The notes beneath the pieces were generated by a model. It worked only from the letters and a program-made list of their open reading frames with translations. It made no database searches and was not told the DNA's origin. Shown here piece after piece: positions 52,138 through 57,711 of a DNA stretch of 58,540 nucleotides (position 1 is its first letter; each line of letters starts with the position of its first letter). The stretch covers positions 237 to 58,776 of the forward strand of contig PLEX01000198.1 in NCBI GenBank assembly GCA_003136575.1. Reading direction: 5' to 3'. Source of the stretch: Bryobacterales bacterium (GTDB taxonomy: Bacteria > Acidobacteriota > Terriglobia > Bryobacterales > Bryobacteraceae). The translations under genes were made by a program, and so were the position numbers.

Positions 52138-52773
52138 TCAGGCGCGACGGGTGGTGAGTTCGCGCCAGTTGAAGCCGAGTTCGACGACGAGCAGGGAACC
52201 CAACGTGAAAACGATGAGGCCGACGGCGGCGAGCCTGTCGTTAAGGTGGCTCCAGTAGAGGGGCCAGATATTCAGCACGCGGCTGGAGACGAAGGTGAAC
52301 GTGACTGCATAGGAGCGAACCATCCATTGGCGATGCCGGGCGATTTGGCGGTTACGCGCCGTGATCAGGGCGGTGGTGGTGCAGACGACCCAGGCGGCGG
52401 CCTGCACGCAGGTTCCTGGCATGCCGGGCCGGCCGGCGGCGAGGGCGATCCCGGTCAAGGCACCGACAAAGACGGAAATAACGTAGATGCGACCGAGGAC
52501 GCGATGGAATTTCAGGTGACGCCGGCGAAAGCGCGACGAGAACTGCACAGGGCCGGCCAGGAGAGCGATGACGCCGCCGAGTGTATGGGGGATGAGGAGA
52601 TGGCGGTCGGCGATAACCTGCAGACGGTAGGCGTGATACATCGGGTAATCGGTGACGAGAAGAGCTTCCGATGTGATGAAGACAAAGAGCGTAGTGAGAC
52701 CCAGGGAAATCCAGAGAAGGGTTTTGAATCCGGAACGTCCGGAACCGGGTGTGGGCAGGGTGGAAGATGCCAT
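52138..52773 (-). CDS. DUF2306 membrane protein
   Basis: 211 residues with six predicted helices. DUF2306 features are a first helix LLWISLGLTTLFVFITSEAL, HTLGGVIALLAGPVQFSSRF and RHLKFHRVLGRIYVISVFVG, then RQIARHRQWMVRSYAVTFTF. Several His residues in or near helices (HTLGG, KFHR, RHRQW) suggest heme or metal binding similar to cytochrome b561-like proteins. Function is unproven. It follows yceI on the same strand by 69 bases. Confidence 0.85.
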   Translation of the reverse strand: MASSTLPTPGSGRSGFKTLLWISLGLTTLFVFITSEALLVTDYPMYHAYRLQVIADRHLLIPHTLGGVIALLAGPVQFSSRFRRRHLKFHRVLGRIYVISVFVGALTGIALAAGRPGMPGTCVQAAAWVVCTTTALITARNRQIARHRQWMVRSYAVTFTFVSSRVLNIWPLYWSHLNDRLAAVGLIVFTLGSLLVVELGFNWRELTTRRA

Positions 52774-52842
52774 TATTCGCCTCGTGGATGGGTAGACGCA
52801 ACGAGGGAAACCGCGGTCATTTCATTCGGCAAACGCTGGATT

Positions 52843-53433
52843 TCAGGCAGGACGAGCGAAGATCTGAAAATCGATTTCCACTTCATTCTTCACCTTGATG
52901 ATTCCGCCACCGATACTGATGGGCGTGATTCCAAAATCGGTTTGTTTGAGAACGGTGTGTCCCGTGTAGAACTCGCCGGTCTGTTTCACGGTCAGGCTTA
53001 ACGACTTGCTGACACCGTGTAAAGACAAATCGCCATCGACCTTCCATTGGCCGTCCGCCAATTTTTGGACGCGGGAAGAGCGAAAGGTTATCTCGGGAAA
53101 CTTCTTCGTCTCCAGTACCATATCCTCCATATGTGTCTGGATCGTTGCCTGATCTTTCGCGTCGACTTTGGGGTCGGGCTTCACCGTCATCTTCGCGGTC
53201 TCAACCCGAAATTCGATGCGCTGGGCACCGGACTCCAGAATGGTGCCGGCGGATATCGGCGCGCTGACGGTATGGTCATGCGCGGCGGCTGACAACAGCC
53301 CGGACTTGCCAACGTGAATCGTGATCGTGCTGCGCTGTGTGTCGATGGCTTTTTCCTGAGCGGCTTTTTCCTGAGCAATCAGCGGCGCTGCCGCTGCCAT
53401 CGCCGTGCAGAGAGCCAGAGTGCTAAGCCGCAT
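52843..53433 (-). CDS. YceI-family periplasmic lipid-binding protein
   Basis: 196 residues with a signal peptide (LCTAMAAAAPLIAQEKA). The lipocalin-like domain includes STITIHVGKSGLLSAAAHDH, FRSSRVQKLADGQWKVDGDL, SLHGVSKSLSLTVKQTGEFY and TDFGITPISIGGGIIKVKNE. YceI/TT1927b proteins hold polyisoprenoid lipids or quinone-like ligands inside an extended barrel. Its start overlaps the stop of the FAD monooxygenase gene by 11 bases, so the two are probably co-translated. A broken second copy is at 54831 beside the PKS genes. Confidence 0.92.
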   Translation of the reverse strand: MRLSTLALCTAMAAAAPLIAQEKAAQEKAIDTQRSTITIHVGKSGLLSAAAHDHTVSAPISAGTILESGAQRIEFRVETAKMTVKPDPKVDAKDQATIQTHMEDMVLETKKFPEITFRSSRVQKLADGQWKVDGDLSLHGVSKSLSLTVKQTGEFYTGHTVLKQTDFGITPISIGGGIIKVKNEVEIDFQIFARPA

Positions 53434-54565
53434 AAGAATAAACCCTCCTTAAATTCCGTTCAAAGATTTTCGCCGGAAGCATACTTGTTACCGTCTGGCG
53501 CCCCGCCGCGATCAGCCGGTTTTCCCACTGCCCGATATGCCCCATTAGAAGGGACCGCTGCTGCACATGCCTTGTTCGTTCCCGGCGCAGCGATTCGTAG
53601 CGGCGCAGCGCCAATTGGGGAGTCGCCTCTCCGCAAAACGATTTGGCCAGGACCAGCGCGTCTTCGAGCGCCATGCAGCCACCCAATCCCAGATTCGGCG
53701 TGCAAGGGTGAGCGGCATCCCCGAGCAACACTACCCTCCCCTCTCCCCAGCGTTTCAGGGGAGCGAGATCGTATGCGCCATTTTTCAAAATCGCATTTTC
53801 TTCCGTCGCGGCAATCAGGCTTTCTACGGGCTGGTGCCAGCCCGCGAACATCCGCAGGAGATCGTGCCGGCGGCCTTCGGATGAGTCGGCGTGGTCGGAA
53901 TCCGTATTCGCCGTGGCATACCATGTGAACCGGTCGCCGCCGGTGCCGAGAATGCCGAAACGCCTTCCTCGCCCCCAGGTTTCGCTGTTCGAGCCCGAGG
54001 GAACGGCTCCCCTGAGAGACGCGAGCCCCCGCCAGATCGTGTAGCCGCGGTAGATGGGTTCGTGAACTCCCAGTATTTGAGAGCGGACGCGCGAGCGAAT
54101 GCCATCGGCGCCGATCACAAAGTCATGCTTCACCGAAGCACCACCAGCGAAATGGACTCCAACGCCGGATTTCCGCCGGTCGAGGTATTCGAAATCGTGG
54201 CCGAGACGGACACGCCCCGCCGGCAGCGCGGAAATCAGTGCGTCCAGCAGATCGCAGCGGCGCGTGCACAGAGCTGGTACGTCGAAATGGCCCAGTCCGA
54301 TATCCATCAGGATCGAGCCTGTGATGGAGCGAACGAGGAACTGCTGGTTCGGCCCGCTCAATGCCGCCACGCGTTCGAGCACACCCAAGTCCTTCAGCAC
54401 ACGCGTAGCGTTGGGCCAAAGCATCATACCCGCCCCCACCTCGCGAAGCTCGTTTGCCCTTTCGTATACCGTCGCGTGGATGCCTGCGCGGTGAAGCGCG
54501 ACGGCCGCGGCTACGCCGCCGATTCCACCGCCGATAATGCCGATATTCAGTCTCTGCAGGTTCAT
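53423..54565 (-). CDS. FAD-dependent monooxygenase
   Basis: 380 residues. Group A flavoprotein hydroxylase motifs: GxGxxG in IGIIGGGIGGVAAAVALHRA, the DG motif in FVIGADGIRSRVRSQIL and the GD motif in VVLLGDAAHPCTPNLGLGG. It resembles salicylate/3-hydroxybenzoate or zeaxanthin-epoxidase-type hydroxylases acting on phenols or olefins. It is transcribed away from a type III PKS cluster whose product could be a resorcinol, and overlaps yceI at its 3' end. Streptomyces SrsC, a flavoprotein acting on a type III PKS product, is a functional precedent; the substrate here is inferred. Confidence 0.9.
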   Translation of the reverse strand: MNLQRLNIGIIGGGIGGVAAAVALHRAGIHATVYERANELREVGAGMMLWPNATRVLKDLGVLERVAALSGPNQQFLVRSITGSILMDIGLGHFDVPALCTRRCDLLDALISALPAGRVRLGHDFEYLDRRKSGVGVHFAGGASVKHDFVIGADGIRSRVRSQILGVHEPIYRGYTIWRGLASLRGAVPSGSNSETWGRGRRFGILGTGGDRFTWYATANTDSDHADSSEGRRHDLLRMFAGWHQPVESLIAATEENAILKNGAYDLAPLKRWGEGRVVLLGDAAHPCTPNLGLGGCMALEDALVLAKSFCGEATPQLALRRYESLRRERTRHVQQRSLLMGHIGQWENRLIAAGRQTVTSMLPAKIFERNLRRVYSYAA

Positions 54566-54611
54566 TGATTCAGGTTTACTTTTGGGTGCGTTGCGGCACC
54601 GGTGTCAAAGT

Positions 54612-54627
54612 CCGGAAGCTCTTCCGG
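54612..54627. other. Short perfect inverted repeat in the divergent spacer
   Basis: CCGGAAG-CT-CTTCCGG, 46 bases upstream of the FAD monooxygenase start, is a 7-bp perfect palindrome with a 2-base spacer, repeated in part by the adjacent CCGGAAG. It could be a regulator-binding site or a small hairpin. Confidence 0.3.
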
Positions 54628-54830
54628 AAGCAAGTCCGGAGACGGCGTGCCCGTTCCGCGAGGGGCTGTACCCGTCAGAAACCACGATCTCTAATAGGGA
54701 TACCATGGCTCGGTTCTTCATCGCGGTTGGCTGCAACATTCCTTGCATACCCGGGACGGCTGCAGGTGAACTTTGGTTCCATGAGGAATTTCATTCGAAG
54801 TACCGTAAATGACGCCTGGACAACCGCAAA

Positions 54831-55031
54831 ATGAACGGAAATCCGACCTTGCTCGGCGTCGGCAAGTCCATCGCAGTGAACGTGAAGCCGGCGGGCGACG
54901 CATGGTCGGGTAATGCCCTCATCAGGCAGACGGATTACGGCATTCAGGGCGCGGACGGACCCGCCAGGGTGCAAGACAGGGCGCACGATAAGATAGAAGT
55001 TCAATTCGACATCTGCGCACTTCCGAAATGA
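54831..55031 (+). pseudogene. C-terminal fragment of a second YceI protein
   Basis: The frame reads TLLGVGKSIAVNVKPAGDAW, SGNALIRQTDYGIQGADGPA and DKIEVQFDICALPK, aligning with the last 65 residues of YceI proteins (LHGVSKSLSLTVK, LKQTDFGI, VKNEVEIDFQI in the copy at 52843). The first two thirds, including the signal peptide, are missing. A stop precedes ATG 54831. It lies just before the type III PKS gene on the same strand. Confidence 0.7.
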
Positions 55032-55134
55032 CCGCTGTTCTATTGCGGGGTGTTGAATTCCGAAACAGTGCGGCAGCTTCCAACTTCCATTCTGTGCGCC
55101 GCATCCAAAACTCTGCAATGATTTCGGGCTCCCT

Positions 55135-56364
55135 ATGGCTACATTGATTCAGCCCCGTGTTGTGCACAATCGACTTTCCAGCCCAGGCGGCGTGCGTCTG
55201 CATTCTTTTTGCCTTGTCCGTCCACTGCACTCCGGAACACAGGAAGAAGCTTTGCGTTGGCTGGCGGAGGCCCATATCCGGGCGGAAGAAACCCAGCGTC
55301 TGAACAACGGCCATCCACCGGTCAGTCCTGGTTTTGCGGCCATGATGCCCAGGCTGCTGCACCGCTACGGCTGTTCACCAGGCAAGATCTCCGCGCGCGG
55401 ATCTGAATTGAACGATTACCTGCACACGTCATGGGAAAATATGGAAGTTTATCGTCTGGCGGAGAGTTCCAAAGGGGCCGGCATGTCGGTACGCTCGCAG
55501 GTCTTTGCACGCGCCGCGCACCGAACGATGAATGCGATGTTTGCGAACGAGCCCAACCCACCGGACGATCTCATCCACGTGACCTGCACCGGATACCTCT
55601 CCCCCAGCGCAGCCCAACTGATGGCAGTGGAAAAAGGTTGGCGGCGGACACGCGTCACCCACGCTTATCACATGGGCTGTTATGCCGCATTGCCGGCCAT
55701 CCGCATCGGAAGCGGATTTCTGGCCTCCACAACCGGCCGGGCGCACCGCGTGGACATTGCGCACACCGAACTCTGCACCTTGCACCTTGACCCTTCAGAC
55801 CACAGCCCCGAACAGCTCGTTGTGCAGAGCCTGTTCGCGGATGGTCACATCCGCTATACCCTGAGCGATGGCTCCGGCCCGGCTCCGGTCGCCACGGCGG
55901 ACATGACTCATTCCGGGTACCGTATCCTTACCATGGCGGACGAACTGCTTGCAGACTCCGCCGACGACATGCGGTGGAGTCTGAGCGAGTGGGGATTCCG
56001 CATGGCCCTCACGCAGCAAGTGCCGGAAAAAATCGGCAATGCATTGCCCGCGTTCCTGGCGAGGCTTTTCTCGCAGGCAGGACTCGATTACGAAGCGGAG
56101 AAGGAGAGTGCAATTTTTGCGATCCACCCCGGCGGACCAAAGATCGTTGAACAAGTCTCGGATGCGCTGGGCCTGCGTCCGGAACAATCCGCCGCCAGCC
56201 GCACCGTATTGCTCAATTACGGGAACATGTCATCCGCAACTCTGCCGCATGTGTGGAATGAGATCCTGGAATCAGGCGCAGCCGAGCCCGGACAACTGGT
56301 GGCAAGTCTTGCGTTTGGTCCGGGCCTGACGATATGCGGCGCCTTGTTCCAGGTGGAACAGTGA
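55135..56364 (+). CDS. Type III polyketide synthase
   Basis: 409 residues. The chalcone-synthase-type triad is present: Cys151 in LIHVTCTGYLSPSAAQL, His331 in FAIHPGGPKIVEQV and Asn364 in LNYGNMSSATLPHVW. The C-terminal FGPGLTICGALF matches the family's GFGPGLT loop. The enzyme condenses malonyl units onto an acyl starter; bacterial members with a similar layout make alkylresorcinols, alkylpyrones or phloroglucinols. The long N-terminus (about 1-35) is usual. It heads the PKS-membrane protein-methyltransferase operon, 70 bases before the next gene. Confidence 0.95.
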   Translation: MATLIQPRVVHNRLSSPGGVRLHSFCLVRPLHSGTQEEALRWLAEAHIRAEETQRLNNGHPPVSPGFAAMMPRLLHRYGCSPGKISARGSELNDYLHTSWENMEVYRLAESSKGAGMSVRSQVFARAAHRTMNAMFANEPNPPDDLIHVTCTGYLSPSAAQLMAVEKGWRRTRVTHAYHMGCYAALPAIRIGSGFLASTTGRAHRVDIAHTELCTLHLDPSDHSPEQLVVQSLFADGHIRYTLSDGSGPAPVATADMTHSGYRILTMADELLADSADDMRWSLSEWGFRMALTQQVPEKIGNALPAFLARLFSQAGLDYEAEKESAIFAIHPGGPKIVEQVSDALGLRPEQSAASRTVLLNYGNMSSATLPHVWNEILESGAAEPGQLVASLAFGPGLTICGALFQVEQ

Positions 56365-56434
56365 CCCCGTCCTTGTTACAGGCCGGATTCCGGACCCCAA
56401 TTCCGGGGCTGACAATCCGCCATTTAATTCAGTC

Positions 56435-56941
56435 ATGAAATACCTGCTGCTGTTGCCGCTGGCGGTGCAGGGGCTCGCCATCCTTGTGGATGAGTTCCAC
56501 TTCCACTTCGCGCGCGGACTGCCGCGTTGGGAGCGCATTGGACATCCGCTCGATACCTTCACGGTGTTGGCTCCCATATTGTGGCTGGTCTTTACCGTGC
56601 CTTCCGAGCGCAATCTGATCGTCTACATCGTAGCCGCTGCATTCTCGTGCTTTTTCGTCACCAAGGACGAATTCGTACATGCCGATCTTTGCCCGCCGGC
56701 CGAGCACCTGAATCACGCCGTGCTCTTCATCGCGCATCCACTGGTTTTTGCCGCGTTGGCACTGCTGTGGCCGCTCTATCACTCGCCCGCCGGAGCAGCC
56801 GCGTGGCTCGAACGCTTTCGCGGCCTGGAATACGCCTTGCCGGCCCAGGCCACATTGATGGCACTGTACATGATCTATCAGGTTGTCTACTGGAACCTGA
56901 TCCGGAAGGCTCCGGCAACCGGGTTCGAGGCACGCCGGTGA
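56435..56941 (+). CDS. Small multi-pass membrane protein of the PKS operon
   Basis: 168 residues with about five helices (YLLLLPLAVQGLAILVDEFH, FTVLAPILWLVFTVPS, AVLFIAHPLVFAALALLWPL, LMALYMIYQVVYWNLI). Conserved-looking polar residues include DEFHFHFARGLPRWERIGHP and FVTKDEFVHADLCPPAEHLN. The His/Asp-rich clusters suggest metal binding, but I recognise no named family. Its TGA overlaps the methyltransferase GTG, so the two are translated together. It may present or release a membrane-bound product. Confidence 0.7.
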   Translation: MKYLLLLPLAVQGLAILVDEFHFHFARGLPRWERIGHPLDTFTVLAPILWLVFTVPSERNLIVYIVAAAFSCFFVTKDEFVHADLCPPAEHLNHAVLFIAHPLVFAALALLWPLYHSPAGAAAWLERFRGLEYALPAQATLMALYMIYQVVYWNLIRKAPATGFEARR

Positions 56942-57711
56942 GGAGCGCGTCACAACAGTCCGTAAACAATGAGATCTACCACGCCCTTGGCGAGCGCTGG
57001 TACAAAGCGCAGGACGATCCTGTGGCGCTGCTGCGCGCCGAGTCGCGATTGCGCAACCCCTGGGTCGCGGAGGAACTCCGCGCACGCTTCGCCGGGCGCT
57101 CACTCCGCATCCTCGATGCAGGCTGTGGGGGCGGTTTCCTTTCCAACTATCTGGCCACCCAGGGACACACCGTCGTTGGCCTCGATTTCGCTTCGGATGC
57201 GCTGAAAGTCGCCCGCCTGCATGACGCCACCGGCCGGGTGGAATTCATACAAGGAGATGCCTATCGACTTCCTTTCCAGGATGGCGCCTTTGATGCCATT
57301 TGCTGTATGGACTTCCTTGAGCACGTGGAAGAGCCGGAACTCTCCATCCGTGAAGCCGCCCGCGTGCTCGTGCCCGGCGGTTTGTTCGTCTATTACACCT
57401 TCAACCGTAACTGGCTGGCCTGGTTGGTGGCGATCAAAGGAGTGGAGTGGTTCGTGCCCAATACTCCGCCCAATATGCACGTTCTGCGTTTGTTCATCAA
57501 ACCCGAAGATTTGAATTCCATGTGCGCGCGTTCCGGTCTCGCAGTAGATTCGGTGCGCGGCATGGCGCCGGTGGTCTTCTCCGCGGCGTTCTGGAAACTG
57601 CTCACCTTCCACACCGTGGCTGACAGTTTTGCCTTCCGATTCACACGATCGACCAGAATTTCCTATATTGGATTCGCCCGCAAGATACAAGAAGAGCAGG
57701 TCAACTTTTAG
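56938..57711 (+). CDS. SAM-dependent methyltransferase (UbiG/UbiE-like)
   Basis: 257 residues from GTG 56938, overlapping the previous stop (GTGA). The N-terminus NNEIYHALGERWYKAQDDPV resembles UbiG. The SAM motif is LRILDAGCGGGFLSNYLA, then VVGLDFASDALKVARLHD, and GAFDAICCMDFLEHVEEPEL for motif II. The later VLVPGGLFVYYTFNRNWLAW and NMHVLRLFIKPEDLNSM resemble the UbiG hydroxyl-O-methylation domain. UbiG methylates phenolic quinone precursors, so O-methylation of a PKS-derived phenol is likely. A frame extends upstream to 56527 but is a shadow of the membrane gene. Confidence 0.92.
   Translation: MRSASQQSVNNEIYHALGERWYKAQDDPVALLRAESRLRNPWVAEELRARFAGRSLRILDAGCGGGFLSNYLATQGHTVVGLDFASDALKVARLHDATGRVEFIQGDAYRLPFQDGAFDAICCMDFLEHVEEPELSIREAARVLVPGGLFVYYTFNRNWLAWLVAIKGVEWFVPNTPPNMHVLRLFIKPEDLNSMCARSGLAVDSVRGMAPVVFSAAFWKLLTFHTVADSFAFRFTRSTRISYIGFARKIQEEQVNF

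Follow-up and report, generated by a model that had tools for sequence, protein, structure and literature searches.

Type III polyketide synthases (PKSs) leading to alkylquinones are in print, on the excerpted text of the reports cited, from Streptomyces, mycobacteria and Myxococcus xanthus (PMC9927152, PMC10896814). The nearest described arrangements are the Streptomyces srsABC and the mycobacterial and streptomycete pkqABC polyketide-quinone clusters, in which a PKS carrying Trp281 is accompanied by a methyltransferase (MT) and a flavoprotein (PMC9927152), and for M. xanthus FtpA an alkylresorcinol of type III PKS origin is oxidised to an alkylquinone (PMC10896814). PKS, oxidoreductase and MT also stand together in the hierridin genes hidABC and in MT-oxidoreductase-PKS operons of Planctomycetota, and an operon of the planctomycete 'S. 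ferox' comprises a PKS, two MT genes, a lipoprotein and a lipid/isoprenoid-binding protein (PMC10896814); a myxobacterial alkylpyrone cluster is likewise in print (PMC12766979). We describe a related locus in a 58,540-nucleotide stretch (the window) of contig C31 of a Bryobacterales bacterium (genome 6.6 Mb, 242 contigs, 83% complete), in which a PKS gene is followed by genes for a 168-residue membrane protein, here called mem168, and a UbiG-like MT, and is faced by genes for a FAD-dependent monooxygenase (FMO), a YceI protein and a DUF2306 protein.

With the Srs and Pkq clusters the window shares the type III PKS with Trp281, an MT and, nearby, a flavoprotein. It differs from them in that the core of the cassette includes mem168, that the MT is of UbiG type, that the cassette occurs in many Gram-negative phyla and that the FMO faces the opposite way. 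The single operon of PKS, MT and flavoprotein of the Srs/Pkq layout is thus absent here, the FMO gene lying on the opposite strand, and no FMO was found near the PKS in 78 of the 80 loci compared below. Azotobacter ArsC is the closest solved relative of the window PKS and ArsB has the same tryptophan, and we know of no mem168 or MT neighbour of the ars genes. The hidABC and Planctomycetota operons differ in gene set and order, and the excerpted source does not mention mem168; M. xanthus FtpA is likened by its description, and could belong to the same cassette or to another (PMC10896814). The chemistry appears to be that of known type III PKS phenolic lipids or polyketide quinones, and the mem168 cassette is apparently undescribed, no description being recognised in the open-licence PMC literature, although subscription papers could hold one.

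A cassette of PKS, mem168 and methyltransferase

The conserved core of the locus is PKS, mem168 and MT, rather than all six genes that a preliminary description of this DNA had joined in one cluster. Genome contigs were scanned with the PKS as key and the best 80 of 134 relatives kept, the genes at each locus being called by tblastn with the window proteins, open reading frame extension and recount; 50 of the 80 fall short of 19 kb, truncated where the contig ends. In 70 of the 80, mem168 immediately follows the PKS on its strand (spacing -16 to +174 bp). The MT is present in 65; in 64 it is adjacent, and in L011 it lies further off within the locus. The loci are labelled as coming from Chlamydiae, Bdellovibrio relatives, Myxococcales, Fibrobacteres, Holophagae/Geothrix, Blastocatellia, Verrucomicrobia and some Proteobacteria. 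To our knowledge no type III PKS alkylquinone is known for Chlamydiota, Bdellovibrionota or Fibrobacterota. Beyond the core, blastp clusters of the neighbours across the 80 loci are all lineage-limited. Co-occurrence across genomes, proposed earlier as a check on the six genes, is therefore seen for these three, and the set of six is not the conserved unit.

In some loci mem168 and MT are also physically joined. They form one open frame in 8 of the 70 loci (L007, L010, L013, L014, L023, L047, L054 and L076; the L023 frame is cut by the contig), which fall into three lineages on the PKS tree, the Holophagae group, L047 (Myxococcota) and L054 (Bdellovibrionota). A search keyed on mem168 itself (alignment A1, threshold 1e-8) gave 15 matches including the window, in 14 of 297 Acidobacteriota genomes and all with E<1e-49; an MT adjoins 14 of these and a PKS 12. 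The three lacking an adjacent PKS are those of G318, where the PKS is on another contig, and G123, and a second copy in G351 that is coupled to yceI. The arrangement goes beyond chance, since the PKS-mem168-MT order repeats in many phyla and L002 and G010 share the 11 bp by which FMO and yceI overlap in the window.

The window-type PKS and mem168 were found in none of 60 other relatives searched, 32 of which have a different type III PKS (27-32% identical). On the PKS tree the window and L002, its only close PKS relative (77%), group with G069 and G351, which belong to two other Acidobacteriota families. This sporadic presence points to transfer or repeated loss. The window genome contains a second, different type III PKS (351 residues) beside a tetratricopeptide repeat (TPR) protein gene on contig C124 (L119).

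Two host labels look doubtful. The L068 contig is labelled as a Synechococcales cyanobacterium, its PKS groups inside the Bdellovibrionota rows and the label may be wrong; L061, a metagenome bin labelled Chlamydia trachomatis, has a PKS that groups with environmental chlamydiae, and its label is probably a misnomer. A gene that by the look of its sequence is peroxiredoxin-like recurs, mostly 3' of the cassette, at 14 of the 80 loci, the majority of them chlamydial (e.g. L015, L026, L045).

Coordinates of the window features are given in Table 1. The individual elements named in the preliminary description are all there: the PKS with its triad (Cys182-His331-Asn364), the membrane protein gene whose stop overlaps the MT gene, by 4 bp (MT GTG start at 56938, mem168 stop ending at 56941), the facing flavoprotein gene overlapping yceI and followed by DUF2306, and a YceI fragment beside the PKS.

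Table 1. Features of the PKS locus in window coordinates
Feature	Coordinates	Strand	Evidence
DUF2306 predicted membrane protein, 211 aa	52138..52773	-	PF10067 E=1.1e-25
YceI lipid-binding protein, 196 aa, with an apparent signal peptide on visual inspection	52843..53433	-	PF04264 E=3.7e-20
FAD-dependent monooxygenase (FMO), 380 aa, shares 11 bp with yceI	53423..54565	-	PF01494 E=1.7e-22
yceI remnant, C-terminal 66 aa of a second, different yceI	54831..55031	+	PF04264 positions 92-148 E=0.0035
Type III polyketide synthase (PKS), ArsB-like, 409 aa	55135..56364	+	PF02797 E=1.3e-24
mem168, 168-aa membrane protein, candidate ring hydroxylase	56435..56941	+	Invariant residues; AlphaFold2 model
UbiG-like S-adenosylmethionine methyltransferase (MT), 257 aa, GTG start	56938..57711	+	TIGR01983 127.2 bits

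A predicted methoxylated redox lipid and a candidate hydroxylase

The best PDB relatives of the window PKS are 3vs9 (E=4.6e-70) and 3vs8, given in the excerpted source as the G284W variant and the wild type of Azotobacter ArsC (PMC6274091), and the choice of resorcinol or pyrone is there ascribed to ArsB Trp281 versus ArsC Gly284 (PMC6274091, PMC9927152). W281 of the window PKS aligns to the W of 3vs9 and the G of 3vs8, and the triad and Trp281 are both present in 80 of 80 aligned PKS rows (the window and 79 of the 80 loci; in L070, outside the alignment, the Trp was read by eye), a count open to a possible small bias as Trp281 is contained in one of the six PKS scan patterns. Because the residue is found in the window and in every aligned row, the first product of the PKS is likely a 5-alkylresorcinol. 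An alkylpyrone, which the best match to ArsC might have indicated, was dropped on the strength of the ArsB-like Trp. The model PF00195 scores only 21.4 bits on the window PKS, under its cut-off of 27.

The window MT, METHYLTRANSFERASE, passes the NCBIfam UbiG model TIGR01983 (127.2 bits, cut-off 102.95), and its best PDB match is the 3-demethylubiquinone-9 3-methyltransferase 4kdc (E=2.5e-31), which we take to be E. coli UbiG. The UbiG model matches all 40 MTs scanned (the window and 39 full-length of the 65 locus MTs) at E<=1e-20. The substrate of UbiG is a lipid-linked ring, methylated at a hydroxyl next to a second oxygen; on that pattern the resorcinol would be expected to gain a further ring hydroxyl before it is methylated. 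The likeness to UbiG lies in this closest solved relative and in the family score; unlike UbiG, the cassette MT is tied to a type III PKS, and in some lineages is fused to mem168.

mem168 is the most conserved and the most novel part of the cluster. Across 60 aligned sequences (one from the window and 59 from the 70 loci, after removal of eight fusions and of three sequences that are partial or doubtful) 22 residues are invariant, many of them acidic or His, including E20/H24, E33/H37/D40, D78/E79/H82, E90/H94 and H101; the protein is mostly 143-186 residues long. Its AlphaFold2 model is confident (pLDDT 92.1, pTM 0.87), with long helices at 2-27, 31-53, 58-76, 88-116 and 131-156, and in this model the acidic and His residues near the helix ends look like a candidate dinuclear metal site. 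Searches gave nothing above cut-off in Pfam (a single match below it, PF07695, E=0.024), no match in NCBIfam, no relative among PDB sequences (best E 1.1) and no matching fold in the PDB (best E 1.4) or BFVD; membership of a recognised membrane metal-dependent hydroxylase family or fold was accordingly not found in these four resources. Under the reading set out next, mem168 is probably a metal-dependent integral-membrane enzyme.

Our preferred reading, to which we give a probability of about one half, is that PKS, mem168 and MT form a membrane phenolic-lipid pathway to a methoxylated alkyl hydroquinone or quinone-like redox lipid. The PKS, as its sequence supports, would add malonyl units to a long-chain acyl starter and close the chain by aldol condensation to give the 5-alkylresorcinol. 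This lipid would then enter the membrane, where mem168 may hydroxylate the ring, a role that could be taken by the FMO in L002 and by an FMO or a U32-type protein in some Riflebacteria; the window FMO may introduce a second hydroxyl. The UbiG-like MT, as predicted from its family, would O-methylate the neighbouring hydroxyl at the membrane, touching mem168, and in some Acidobacteriota a periplasmic YceI may, as an accessory, bind or carry the lipid, perhaps as an antioxidant or electron carrier. The modified phenolic or quinone lipid put forward in the preliminary description would thus be the likeliest product, judged from an ArsB/ArsC-related PKS with its Trp and from the tightly coupled membrane protein and UbiG-like MT.

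A hint that mem168 acts as the ring hydroxylase comes from apparent gene replacement in a few, partly related loci. Four of the ten PKS loci that lack mem168 have an FMO or a U32-family protein by the PKS: a FAD_binding_3 monooxygenase in L002 and in the Riflebacteria locus L022, the latter in the same NCBIfam neighbourhood as the window FMO, and, in two more Riflebacteria loci, a U32-family protein whose gene comes immediately behind that of the PKS (L024:10176-11345 and L016:6902-7396; PF01136, E 8e-9 and 8e-11; the L016 contig ends within the gene). The U32 proteins weakly resemble the prephenate-dependent hydroxylase TrhP, far below the TrhP cut-off. No mem168 match was found in the genomes of these four loci, and in L002 the place expected for mem168 is taken by the MT gene, whose start falls within the last part of the PKS gene. 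Two further loci without mem168 at the PKS have it otherwise, L050 as mem168-MT elsewhere in the genome and L068 as a divergent paralogue. An FMO or U32 gene accompanies 4 of 10 loci without mem168 versus 1 of 71 with it (Fisher p=0.0006), for categories that are post hoc, rows that are non-independent and a U32 model built from its own two loci.

Several observations weigh against this reading. L017, L043, L051 and L070 have neither FMO or U32 nearby nor mem168 elsewhere; the U32 match is modest, the only NCBIfam match being to the tRNA hydroxylase model far under cut-off; and the three Riflebacteria loci are one clade on the PKS tree, which leaves two or three events behind the replacement argument. 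In the window, mem168 and an FMO are both present. The fused form occurs in the Geothrix relatives L010 and L014, and as Geothrix are anaerobes the reaction may not use O2, which speaks against an O2-dependent enzyme. Five mem168 loci (L005, L036, L038, L063, L073) show no MT despite 3 to 9 kb of downstream sequence, a sixth without a visible MT (L081) lying at a contig end, and G123 has mem168-MT with no such PKS in its genome at E<=1e-30. Near the PKS over the 80 loci, tblastn and hidden Markov models (HMMs) found an FMO in 2, a YceI in 1, a rarity that counts against the YceI step, and a DUF2306 in none; the HMM scans for FMO, YceI, DUF2306 and U32, on unfiltered six-frame translations, used few-sequence models that can miss distant relatives, and recovered the DUF2306 of G013 as expected.

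The best-surviving alternative, which we regard as doubtful, is that mem168 is no enzyme and serves as a membrane anchor, substrate presenter or exporter holding the MT, so that the lipid would be an O-methylated alkylresorcinol, hydroxylated on the ring only where there is an FMO. The MT fusions and the short overlaps would suit a scaffold equally, and G123 retains mem168-MT in a genome lacking a PKS of window type. Set against this, an anchor would hardly seem to need 22 invariant residues, of which many are acidic or His; several PKS loci have mem168 but no detected MT, and no MT neighbours the YceI-coupled mem168 paralogues.

Under the preferred reading of mem168 as an enzyme, a redox-active polyketide lipid pathway would extend over many Gram-negative phyla, among them those of environmental chlamydiae and of relatives of predatory bacteria, and YceI proteins would be linked to a non-isoprenoid ligand. 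mem168 would then offer tractable access to a new family of membrane enzymes, being small, rich in invariant residues, confidently modelled, fused to its partner in some lineages and apparently replaced by FMO or U32 in a few loci. More tentatively, and against the odds as we judge them, mem168 might found a new class of small membrane metal-dependent ring hydroxylase and PKS-mem168-UbiG be an unrecognised polyketide-quinone or quinol-antioxidant pathway, shared by environmental Chlamydiota, Bdellovibrionota, Myxococcota, Fibrobacterota and Acidobacteriota, some of which would use YceI to carry the lipid in the periplasm.

The divergent FMO-YceI-DUF2306 arm

The facing arm is best judged from its relatives. 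The window FMO has its best NCBIfam models in PRK06753 and HpxO, each under cut-off (247.2 versus 500 bits for the HpxO urate hydroxylase), and relatives at 79% identity in L002 and 61-62% in G010. The window YceI passes PF04264 (73.3 bits, cut-off 23.7). Its remnant namesake beside the PKS scores 18.1 bits against that cut-off and E=1.7e-12 with a YceI model built here and run on six frames only, is 32% identical to the intact window YceI, and has no N-terminal part in the six frames of 54501-55140. The remnant was ruled out as the source of the L002 yceI, being 32-36% identical to the window and L002 proteins.

In L002 the order on one strand is FMO-YceI-PKS-MT, which indicates that FMO-YceI and PKS do belong together in the window/L002 lineage; the window differs in the orientation of the arm and in having mem168, DUF2306 and the remnant of another yceI. 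The overlapping FMO-YceI pair is also present in same-genus G010, one of the 60 other relatives (61-62% and 64-68% identity), in which two queries found no type III PKS. The preliminary description had tied the arm to the PKS and looked to its conservation as a test. The arm is not conserved with the PKS for DUF2306, in 0 of 80 loci, and mostly not for the FMO, whose tie is weak: an FMO adjoins the PKS in L002 and one of the same family in L022, against none found in the other 78 loci, 50 of the 80 being truncated by contig ends, and the G010 operon, with no type III PKS found in that genome. For YceI the outcome is mixed. Of the 80 loci only L002 was found to have it near the PKS, directly beside it, but it lies next but one upstream of the PKS in G318, where genes for YceI, a ketosynthase, the PKS and a NADPH-dependent FMN reductase lie in a row on one strand (L165:5141-8999), and it stands beside mem168-like genes in G351 and G393. 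The YceI by the PKS in G318 is the only one in that genome at the threshold used; 22 YceI genes were found in 9 of 11 genomes checked.

These facts bear on a further alternative, that the arm is an unrelated FMO-YceI operon beside a horizontally acquired cassette whose product is an alkylpyrone or simple resorcinol with no redox role. The absence of window-type PKS and mem168 from the 60 other relatives and the occurrence of FMO-YceI alone in G010 favour it, but we think it unlikely, as L002 also joins FMO-YceI to the PKS, YceI recurs near the PKS of G318 and near the mem168-like genes of G351 and G393, and Trp281 favours a resorcinol. That PKS, mem168, MT, FMO, YceI and DUF2306 make up one pathway to a periplasmically carried quinone in this organism is improbable, since, for all that L002 has FMO-YceI-PKS-MT on one strand, a related FMO lies by the PKS in L022 and YceI recurs, the three arm genes are rare or missing at the 80 PKS loci, G010 has the FMO-YceI operon and no type III PKS found, and the window arm is on the opposite strand.

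Within the preferred pathway YceI is a plausible carrier or antioxidant partner, by analogy with its family. On the excerpted source, YceI proteins have octaprenyl lipids or ubiquinone-8 as their ligands, and BcnA, together with a b561 protein, shields membranes from lipid peroxyl radicals (PMC9113575). The resemblance to this BcnA-LcoA pair of YceI lipocalin and cytochrome b561 is that a yceI gene adjoins the gene of a small membrane protein (PMC9113575); here, by contrast, the partner of YceI is mem168-like or an FMO, and the FAD_binding_3 and DUF2306 neighbours of the window YceI give no b561 Pfam match. DUF2306 as a b561-like YceI partner was set aside, its single-sequence model being poor (pLDDT 48).

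DUF2306 is probably only a neighbour of the cassette, and may belong rather with the FMO-YceI and TPR genes of the genus. Its 76% relative in same-genus G013 adjoins a TPR gene, the contig ending on the other side; neither a close FMO nor a close YceI was found in G013, nor a type III PKS. A homologue of the TPR gene found behind FMO-YceI in G010 lies beside DUF2306 in G013, and others adjoin a PKS of the 351-residue type in six of the nine stretches of relatives examined (L119, L120, L121, L123, L125 and L127; not L122, L124 or L126). With no type III PKS found in G010 or G013, the TPR link to the PKS is ambiguous.

Two mem168 paralogues are paired with yceI, which overlaps the paralogue in G351 (L143:8451-9706) and follows a more distant one in G393 (L180:685-1869); they keep 19 and 15, respectively, of the 22 invariant residues. 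The pairs have no PKS or MT beside them, lie in genomes filed under different phyla and may represent a second system.

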